Shown: positions 10,204 to 12,351 of the stretch, piece after piece
How positions within the stretch are numbered: the stretch's first letter is position 1
Layout of the letters: each line of letters opens with the position of its first letter
Assembly: GCA_947502595.1 (NCBI GenBank)
Contig: CANNAM010000003.1
Span: 186,001 to 250,000, forward strand
Direction: 5' to 3'
DNA: 64,000 bases
DNA from: an uncultured Marinicella sp.
Lineage (GTDB): Bacteria; Pseudomonadota; Gammaproteobacteria; Xanthomonadales; Marinicellaceae
Notes under the pieces: model-generated
Databases searched by the model: none
The model's input: only the letters and a program-made list of their open reading frames with translations
What the model was told of the DNA's origin: nothing
Translations under genes and position numbers: made by a program

Positions 10204-12351
10204 TCAATAAACATCTTCCACAGTGTTGTGAATATTGAATTTACCAGTTGGGGTAATGATGCGCTCATCTTTGATCACATGTTTCAACTTACGGGTTTTG
10301 TCATCAACAATCACAATCGCTGATCTTTGCTCTTTACCGTTCCAAACTGAGAACCAAACTTCATCACCCTGCATGTTGTATTCAGGCTGTACCACACGTT
10401 TGGCACCTTCACCTAAATCAGCCCATTCTGCAATTGGCAACACTTCAAAACCAGCATCTAGATCATCAATGTTATACACCGCGATACTTTGTGAGATGGC
10501 CTCACTTGGATTAAGCGGCGAGTCAACCCACAGGTTTTTAGACTTAGGATGTGACTTAACAAACAATGAACCACCACCTTGACCATGTAAAGTCCTGACC
10601 ACTGTCCAAGCATGCTCTTTGTGGTTCACCGGATCAGTGGCGATGAAAGTGATGTTGTCATTACCCAGTGAACTGGTGATCCAAACAGGTCCAAACTCAG
10701 GATCAATGATGTTGGCGCCTCGACCAGGGTGCGGAATTTTTTCAGCATCAATCAAAGCAGTCAATTTACGCTCTTTTGAATCAACCACCGCAATTTTATC
10801 TGATTGATTGGCCGCAGTCAGGAAATAGCGTTTGGTGCTGTCCCAACCGCCATCATGTAAAAAGCGGGCCGCATCAATACTGGTAATGGTCAGACTTTCA
10901 ATGTCTGAATAATCAACCAATAAAATCTTACCAGTCTCTTTAACATTCACAATGAACTCAGGATGTAAATGCGAAGCCACAATCGCTGCAACCCTCGGTT
11001 CAGGATGGTATTCTTGGGTATCAACAGTCATGCCACGAGTCGAAACAATGCGTTTTGGCTCTAAAGTATCACCTTCCATAATAGCGAATTGTGGTGGCCA
11101 ATAAGCACCGGCTATGGCGTACTTGTCTTCGTAGCCTTTGTATTTAGAAGTCTCAACTGAACGCGCTTCCAAACCCACTTTAATGGTGGCAACTATTTCA
11201 GGAGGGTTCATGAACATATCAATCATATCAATTTTCGCGTCTCTACCAATGGTGTAAGCATAGCGCCCAGAAGCAGATGGTCGAGTGATGTGTACTGCAT
11301 AACCAGTTTTCAAAATGGTCACGATTTCCTTGGTGTCACCATCAATCAATGCCATTTCACCTGAATCTCGCAGCGTGACCGAAAAGAAGTTTTCGATGTT
11401 TCTGTTGTGTTGTTTGGTCTTAGGTCGATCCTCTGGTTTAACGTGAACTTTCCATGAAGCCAACATTTCTTTCATGCCCCACTCTGGTGGTGCTGGTGGC
11501 TCATGTTGTAAGAACCGTGCCAAACGATCAATTTCCTCGGCAGTAAAATCGCCAGAAGTACCCCAATTAGGCATGCCCGCAGGTGAACCATAGGTAATCA
11601 AAGCTTTTAAATAATCAGTGCCTTTTTCACGAGTGATGTCAGTGGTCAATGGTTTGCCAGTGGCACCTTTGCGCAATACACCATGACAACCAGCACATCG
11701 CTCAAAGTAAATCTTGGTGGCAAAGGCAAATTCATCTTTACTCATGGCAGGGCCATCTGAGTCAATCATTTGTACTGTATCTTCAGGATTGATACCTGAA
11801 GGCGCACCTTGGTAACCAACTTCAGCTGCTGATGCGACTGGATGATCTGCCGCCGCGCCAGTAGGCACTTCAGCCGCATTATTACGTGCTGCCGAAACTT
11901 CGGCTGTTGAGACCTGATAGCCTTCATTGCCCCAACTGTTCATCACATAAGTTACCACATTGGCCACTTCTTCATCTTTCAAGTAAGCCATGTTCGGCAT
12001 CACTGCATTGTAAGTCACACCATTAACAACGATTTCACCAGATAAACCACCAATCACAGTATTGATGGCTCGGTGTTTGTCGGCCAACAAATAATCAGAA
12101 CCTGCCAAAGGAGGAAAAGCGCCCGCTAGACCTTGACCATTGGCTTGGTGGCAGGCTGTACAGTGTGTTTGGTAAACTTTTTCACCAGCCTGAATTTGGC
12201 TGGCCAAATCAGTGGTTCCAGCCTTCATTTCGGCTTTGTGTTCAGCCAACGGATCTACAGCTGCCGGTTGTTCGGCTGCACAGGCTCCAATGCCGATAAA
12301 CATCCCAGCTATAATACCTGCATTCAACAGGCTGCGCTTTAAGGTTCTCAT
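10204..12351 (-). CDS. nirS: Cytochrome cd1 nitrite reductase with extra N-terminal cytochrome c domain, predicted lipoprotein
   Basis: Reduces nitrite to nitric oxide in the periplasm during denitrification. The C-terminal two thirds (about residues 320-715) are the eight-bladed heme d1 domain, with [66 protein letters not shown] and [20 protein letters not shown]. Two heme c sites are present, CTACH (64-68) and CAGCH (219-223), whereas standard NirS has one and about 560-600 residues. The N-terminal extra domain looks like a NirC/NirM-type cytochrome c fused to the enzyme. Residues 20-24 read GIGAC, a lipobox, so the mature protein may be lipid-anchored at Cys24. A DNR-like box lies 126 bases upstream (centre to start codon). 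No heme d1 biosynthesis genes are adjacent. Confidence 0.95.

Follow-up and report, generated by a model that had tools for sequence, protein, structure and literature searches.

Absence of known heme d1 genes together with a nirS-linked TonB-dependent receptor in Marinicella and its relatives, with possible import of heme d1 for a two-heme-c cytochrome cd1 nitrite reductase

The nirS gene described here lies in a stretch of 64,000 nucleotides from an uncultured Marinicella sp. (the window), where it adjoins a gene for a TonB-dependent receptor of the heme type. A first-pass annotation had singled out its product as the most unusual protein of the denitrification region, a judgement that overlooks both the adjoining receptor and the absence of heme d1 genes from the genome. 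A layout of which this NirS is a variant had already been published; more telling is that absent d1 genes and a nirS-linked TonB receptor occur together repeatedly. The sequences lean modestly towards a cytochrome cd1 NirS with a built-in second cytochrome c that would use imported heme d1, or a late precursor of it, loaded in the periplasm.

The gene and its parts were located as follows.

10204..12351, minus strand: nirS, two-heme-c cytochrome cd1 nitrite reductase of 715 aa (open reading frame, Pfam, alignment to solved chains)
10222..11400, minus strand: heme d1 propeller, residues 318-710, with catalytic His354, His499 and His541 (PF02239, 475.8 bits)
11509..11718, minus strand: canonical NirS cytochrome c domain, residues 212-281, with CxxCH 219-223 at 11683-11697 (Pfam and alignment)
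11932..12192, minus strand: extra N-terminal cytochrome c domain, residues 54-140, with CxxCH 64-68 at 12148-12162 (PF00034)
12280..12351, minus strand: predicted signal peptide up to Cys24, by sequence pattern (IGAC, lipobox-like; A-C-A also fits signal peptidase I)
12471..12484, no strand assigned: FNR/DNR-like box TTGACTTATATCAA as read on the nirS strand, beginning 133 nt before the start codon, with one mismatch to the consensus

The 715-residue NirS with two CxxCH motifs and a d1 domain was confirmed by the open reading frame and by Pfam; its strand, which had been left unstated, is the minus strand. Three Pfam domains (Cytochrom_C, 54-140; Cytochrome_CBB3, 212-281; Cytochrom_D1, 318-710) all scored above their curated cut-offs. 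The NirS chain of P. aeruginosa was aligned end to end with residues 174-715, and the equivalents of its His51, Met88, His182, His327 and His369 (residues 223, 260, 354, 499 and 541) are all present. Judged by its d1 propeller, cytochrome c domain, catalytic histidines and heme-c ligands, the predicted protein is a NirS. The catalytic His and the Met of the canonical enzymes (P. aeruginosa, Paracoccus) are kept, whereas an N-terminal cytochrome c domain is added, the genome has no matches to NirDLGH, NirF or NirN and no NirJ above cut-off, and a TonB receptor adjoins the gene. Among named relatives the nearest to this genome, which is 99.78% complete, is Marinicella litoralis, with a NirS 91% identical.

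The spread of the extra domain was assessed in 80 related NirS loci, which are the most similar ones in the search and give figures that are not prevalences. Two CxxCH motifs were counted in 47 of these and one in 32 (L055, which is split, was left unscored); because of this recurrence the two-motif layout is not a product of chance, and the extra domain is common, not rare, among relatives. By NCBI rank, 46 of the two-heme loci belong to Pseudomonadota (Lysobacterales, Idiomarinaceae, MAGs of Moraxellaceae and others) and one to Myxococcota. A class sample of 369 genomes, not picked by NirS similarity and with counts that include the window's own genome, held five two-heme NirS of the window's kind and probably a sixth (G460, with a match starting at residue 50). 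A two-cytochrome NirS of Chloroflexi (C1-C2-NirS), in a layout called unique to that phylum, was described by Schwartz 2022 (PMC8756737). Compared by description, the two types are alike in having a further cytochrome c domain before C2-NirS, in the order cytochrome c, cytochrome c, d1; they differ in that the former is reported from Chloroflexi only, whereas the latter occurs in the 47 loci above, which by their sequences make the layout wider than Chloroflexi. Pold et al. 2024 (PMC10999283) cites the Chloroflexi fusion and gives clades as partially distinguishable by nirBEFJNT content.

The best solved matches to residues 25-170 were the cytochrome c domains of three-domain copper nitrite reductases (about 1e-34), and the next were chains of cytochrome c-552 (about 1e-19). 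A three-domain copper nitrite reductase (L150:1447-2853) was also seen in a genome of the same family, Marinicellaceae (G020), which has a two-heme NirS as well. The C-terminal cytochrome c of this NirK is 53-54% identical to the N-terminal domain of the window NirS. In a tree of 55 domains it fell within a supported set of 18 that includes the N-terminal domains of Marinicellaceae NirS; CoxB domains, on a long branch, fall in the same set. As these comparisons have it, a single cytochrome c module is joined to two unrelated nitrite reductases, NirK and NirS. The tethered cytochrome c of the three-domain enzymes (Ralstonia pickettii, Pseudoalteromonas haloplanktis; PMC13324648) is the closest solved relative of the NirS N-terminal domain. 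Those enzymes differ in having a copper core and the module at the C-terminus rather than the N-terminus; no cupredoxin core was found among the Pfam domains of the window NirS, and only the cytochrome c module is common to both. By analogy, a role as electron relay is reasonable for the NirS domain, and in the Ralstonia enzyme the role of the tethered domain is reported to be more complex than that of a simple fused donor (PMC13324648).

The annotation had also predicted a lipoprotein, and the evidence on this is mixed. Cys24 is kept in all 14 Marinicella genomes with a readable N-terminus, while the residues before it vary (GIGAC, GISAC, GMGAC, GLQAC and ALPAC, read up to the Cys). Four of the 14, those with LPAC, fail the usual PROSITE-like lipobox rule, and A-C-A or A-C-G at this site is compatible with both peptidases, signal peptidase I included, in what is a pattern only. 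Lipidation of Cys24 is nonetheless favoured by the sequences, because the Cys, which would otherwise be a free -2 residue for signal peptidase I, is conserved while its neighbours vary. In sister genera the Cys was found in one of 11 readable sequences, the other 10 having ordinary AXA-like sites, and outside Marinicella most two-heme NirS have no Cys ahead of the first heme motif. Lipobox-like starts also occur in L026, L030 and L035, and the trait may have had more than one origin. As far as these N-termini indicate, the lipobox is mainly limited to the genus, and the putative anchor is no part of the two-heme enzyme type. The residue at +2 is Ala (Gly in L105), and Ala at +2 of a lipoprotein predicts the outer membrane. 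This suggests that the Marinicella anchor, if lipidated, would lie in the outer membrane, away from inner-membrane donors, which speaks against the proposed direct transfer of electrons from membrane donors. The idea of a tethered enzyme with an extra heme held in part: a built-in electron relay is reasonable, given the tethered-domain relatives in CuNiR, and the putative anchor is atypical. AniA of Neisseria, an outer-membrane NirK lipoprotein, offers a likeness as a nitrite reductase possibly held in the same way, and differs as a copper enzyme with an unrelated core.

Heme d1 genes were sought with PF02239, which scores NirS, NirF and NirN, with PF17805, the NirDLGH domain, and with a NirJ model. 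In the window's genome the only Cytochrom_D1 (PF02239) match was NirS itself, no PF17805 match was found, and the only NirJ match reached 48.7 bits against a cut-off of 515. The search was then carried over relatives, in 36 and then 50 genomes, with the result that 72 of the 80 loci have a tested genome (L003, L005, L006, L011 and L012 through G handles with identical nirS coordinates); those without one are L015, L041, L055, L058, L060, L079, L080 and L082. Matches of NirF/NirN scale beyond NirS (at least 180 bits each) were obtained in 22 of the 72, and 21 of these also had PF17805, which indicates that the searches work; the one without PF17805, L054, comes from a MAG some 2.1 Mb in size. 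The remaining 50 had no PF17805 match and, save for contig-end pieces of nirS in L045, no extra PF02239 match above 41 bits. At the sensitivity used, the window genome and 50 of the 72 tested relatives are therefore without the known heme d1 genes NirDLGH, NirF and NirN. NirF has been reported as essential to heme d1 synthesis (PMC13168839). NirJ exceeded its cut-off in two of the 36 genomes tested (Thalassolituus G044 and Accumulibacter G048), and the other d1 genes are present in each of the two.

Many of the genomes are MAGs of completeness not established. Gaps in MAGs do not explain the absence, because the genes are also missing from 14 named isolates (L003, L005, L006, L017, L018, L023, L027, L032, L035, L037, L044, L046, L051 and L069), two of them with complete chromosomes (L017 and L023; Luteimonas granuli and Idiomarina loihiensis). 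Some genomes with a one-heme NirS lack them too (L044, L051, L052, L056 and L069; Pseudohalioglobus, Thiothrix and MAGs); near nirS, three of these five have a TonB receptor of another family, L052 has a contig-end fragment and L056 has none. The equivalents of His182, His327, His369 and Met88 and the heme-c ligands are kept in all 51 NirS lacking the genes (50 loci and the window), as in all 21 NirS with d1 genes (L050, with a stop inside nirS, was excluded). Of 168 d1-domain columns invariant in genomes with d1 genes, 146 are at least 95% conserved in genomes that lack them, and in one column the residue is exchanged in most sequences.

The receptor and the other neighbouring genes were assigned as follows.

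9425..10132, plus strand: regulator of the CRP/FNR family, convergent with nirS, DNR/NNR-like by context (PF00027, PF13545)
12683..14872, minus strand: TonB-dependent receptor of heme/hemoglobin type, immediately upstream of nirS and proposed to import heme d1 or a late precursor of it (TIGR01785, PF00593, PF07715)
15030..16862, minus strand: norD-like, von Willebrand factor A domain (domain; name by context)
16867..17682, minus strand: norQ-like AAA protein (PF08406, CbbQ/NirQ/NorQ C-terminal)
17741..19150, minus strand: norB-like heme-copper subunit (CtaD and ccoN matches below cut-off; name by context and length)
19162..19596, minus strand: norC-like membrane-anchored cytochrome c (name by context), with an FNR/DNR-like box at 19686-19699, beginning 103 nt upstream
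19768-20979: outer-membrane barrel of alginate-export type (PF13372), upstream of the nor genes, with an FNR/DNR-like box at 21038-21051

The receptor has plug and barrel (PF07715 and PF00593), a TIGR01785 score of 337.6 bits against a cut-off of 316.85, and FRAP and NPxL motifs, all in common with heme receptors of the PhuR/HemR type; PhuR is the nearest solved structure (2e-66). In receptors of that type a heme-binding His is expected between FRAP and NPxL. No His was found there in any of 24 aligned nirS-linked receptors, nor in eight of nine unlinked relatives; by this and by its linkage to nirS the window's receptor differs from the type. A FRAPPF-DVN motif was considered as a mark of the nirS-linked receptors and was rejected, as unlinked relatives have most of it.

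Of the 50 loci without d1 genes, 45 carry a TonB receptor no more than 8 kb from nirS, and the 14 isolates are all among them; of the 22 loci with d1 genes, one does (Fisher 1.7e-12, shared descent ignored). The window's own receptor family, defined by profile A1, accounts for 38 of the 50 and for none of the 22. Receptors of other families among the 45 are those of L022, L044, L049, L051, L066 and L069 (at 2-4 kb from nirS in L044 and L069), and L052 has only a contig-end fragment. The single locus with both d1 genes and a linked receptor (L071) has one of another family. Of the five exceptions lacking both, L007, L039 and L056 have no receptor by nirS in their visible flanks, and L019 and L029 run into contig ends. 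That such loci hide a receptor elsewhere proved true for L019 alone, where a 1035-bit receptor sits at another contig edge in the same genome; in the genomes of the other four, the window's family gave no match at E 1e-60.

Among the 40 largest single-linkage clusters of ORFs neighbouring nirS, the receptor was found in 42 of 47 two-heme versus six of 32 one-heme loci, and it was the only real gene family seen with a two-heme bias, in a comparison that covers nirS-neighbouring ORFs only. The two largest clusters were mixed, clusters 7 and 10 appeared by eye to be frames opposite coding sequence, and cluster 23 occurred in eight loci. A tie of the receptor to the two-heme architecture was ruled out by L059 (one heme, no d1 genes, receptor present), with its close relative L053 (d1 genes, no receptor), and by L081 (two hemes, d1 genes, no receptor). 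Receptor linkage follows the missing d1 genes rather than the two hemes.

In the class sample, NirS/NirN-like matches (E <=1e-100) were obtained in 68 of the 369 genomes, with PF17805 present in 62 and absent in six. A receptor of the window's family, the only family searched, adjoins nirS in five of the six (G000, G266, G425, G431 and G441) and in none of the 62 (E <=1e-150; Fisher 5.8e-7, shared descent ignored). The remaining genome, G107, is a MAG with 75% completeness whose NirS has one heme; judged by contig number and position, it looks to be the MAG of L054, which has NirF and NirN. Of the genomes with d1 genes, G410 has a distant receptor and G460 has none at 1e-60. Close relatives of the receptor (E <=1e-150) occur without an adjoining nirS in eight of the 13 class-sample genomes having one, so the family is not specific to d1 and serves elsewhere too. 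Nine of the 369 genomes have a PF17805 match without a NirS/NirN-like match at 1e-100 (e.g. G301, 100% complete, with four matches), and some of these could make heme d1 or a relative of it without NirS.

For REARRANGEMENT and descent, 40 linked loci were compared. The commonest arrangement is divergent (20 loci); in 14 the receptor precedes nirS on the strand of that gene, in five it follows nirS on that strand, and in one (L059, with 817 bases between the frames) it is downstream in the opposite orientation; the class sample adds a tail-to-tail case (G431) and a downstream case (G441). The linkage persists through several rearrangements of order. Between nirS and the receptor of L059, an ORF (5303-6013) resembles a small transposase by eye and may mark the receptor as a recent acquisition. 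On the NirS tree, d1 status changed at least four times and the receptor at least eight. Independent contrasts numbered two on starred branches and four in all, so few that significance is out of reach; in the two on starred branches the receptor moved opposite to the d1 genes in 1.8 on average, and never in the same direction. A tree of 33 receptors was split by one branch (support 97) into 24 nirS-linked and nine unlinked ones, a split helped by the fact that most of the linked receptors came from the set that seeded the search.

FNR/DNR boxes with at most one mismatch were found near the receptor start in 16 of 40 loci versus 1.6% in shuffles, a rough comparison with start codons unfixed, and near nirS in 18 of 40. 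They occur in 10 of the 19 receptors on the nirS strand, that is, without a shared divergent promoter. The window's receptor has no good box of this type (three mismatches at best), and nirS and the norC-like gene have boxes; the receptor may be read from the nor operon. Over the whole window, TTGATN4ATCAA with at most two mismatches occurs 115 times against 63 expected, an excess beyond the few denitrification promoters. Genes similar to the CRP/FNR-family regulator are present in 18 of the 80 relatives' loci and genes similar to the PF13372 barrel, which could be a nitrite or nitrate porin, in 14. A mechanosensitive channel with a BON domain (21104-22489) lies beside the denitrification genes.

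The model of imported heme d1 builds on the sequence evidence given above, from domains and catalytic residues to the lack of d1 genes, the linked receptor and the FNR-type boxes; which ligand is carried, how NirS is loaded, which path the electrons take and in which membrane the anchor lies are what we infer. Apo-NirS would be exported and its c hemes attached in the periplasm. Other denitrifiers would release heme d1 or a late precursor (e.g. dihydro-heme d1), which the nirS-linked TonB receptor would take through the outer membrane and which would bind NirS in the periplasm, with no inner-membrane step needed. The enzyme would then reduce nitrite to NO, with electrons relayed by its tethered N-terminal cytochrome c domain, and the NO would be removed by the neighbouring Nor. 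In Marinicella the lipid anchor, probably in the outer membrane, may speculatively hold NirS near the receptor. In known systems, late heme d1 assembly and NirS loading are periplasmic (PMC13168839, PMC3694632), and outer-membrane import alone would therefore suffice to reach the right compartment. A structure of d1-free NirS exists (PMC7278500), and reconstitution in vitro of apo-cd1 with heme d1 is in print, according to titles cited in PMC3694632.

Extended to its relatives, the model would make heme d1 auxotrophs of many gammaproteobacterial nitrite reducers (Marinicella, Luteimonas, Pseudoxanthomonas, Idiomarina and others), which would import d1 by dedicated receptors recruited from several families, with d1 as a shared good of denitrifying communities; for this the chances appear evenly balanced. 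Against d1 as the ligand, the receptor family is annotated for ordinary heme. Some type strains of Pseudoxanthomonas and Luteimonas reduce nitrite to N2O in pure culture, and N2O formation of this kind would argue against dependence on a partner; no such work on these type strains was found among the open-access matches listed. To our knowledge, free heme d1 has not been quantified in environmental samples. Among the open-access matches listed, screened as titles and abstract openings in a set mostly outside subscription journals, none dealt with heme d1 uptake, d1 auxotrophy or nirS-linked receptors, and the excerpt of PMC11651109 concerns predicted heme D1 production, not d1 uptake.

Heme d1 might instead be made by the cell itself, with other genes standing in for NirDLGH, NirJ and NirF; the receptor would then recover d1 lost from the periplasm or import ordinary heme under the same regulator. 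Full conservation of NirS and the pure-culture activity of related genera agree with this reading, which is rather unlikely all the same: a replacement pathway would predict no dedicated receptor, and among the 40 largest ORF clusters of the nirS neighbourhood the receptor is the sole real family seen with a two-heme bias. That NirS has come to use another tetrapyrrole, such as heme b imported by the receptor, with changed or weak activity, is very unlikely. The heme/hemoglobin type of the receptor would suit it, as would the reconstitution of apo-cd1 with other heme groups, known from a title cited in PMC3694632; with 146 of the 168 invariant d1-domain columns kept, no retuned pocket was seen.

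The first-pass reading, a lipid-anchored NirS with an extra heme c that takes electrons straight from membrane donors, is compatible with import of heme d1. Kinship of the extra domain with the tethered domain of three-domain CuNiR and the invariant Cys of Marinicella speak for it; it is unlikely in view of the many two-heme NirS without the Cys and of the Ala at +2, which suggests the outer membrane, and it leaves the receptor and the missing d1 genes unexplained. It is quite unlikely, lastly, that an ordinary iron or heme receptor shares the anaerobic regulon by chance and that the missing d1 genes mark a relic or non-functional NirS. TonB receptors are common and this family is not exclusive to nirS, as such a reading would have it, whereas linkage differs between genomes with and without d1 genes in two samples, NirS is well conserved, and transcripts of Marinicella nirS, together with norBCQD, have been reported from a marine denitrifying biofilm (PMC6697039). 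The same source regards the genus as strictly aerobic, with no indication of nitrate reduction.

If import of heme d1 is correct, a core enzyme of the nitrogen cycle would run in many bacteria on a cofactor made by others. The presence of nirS in a genome would by itself be no sign of nitrite reduction, and denitrification would hinge on the exchange of a cofactor between species. An import route for heme d1 would be at hand, together with a simple system in which to study the loading of d1 into NirS. Even if import proves false, how heme d1 is made without the known genes becomes a direct question.
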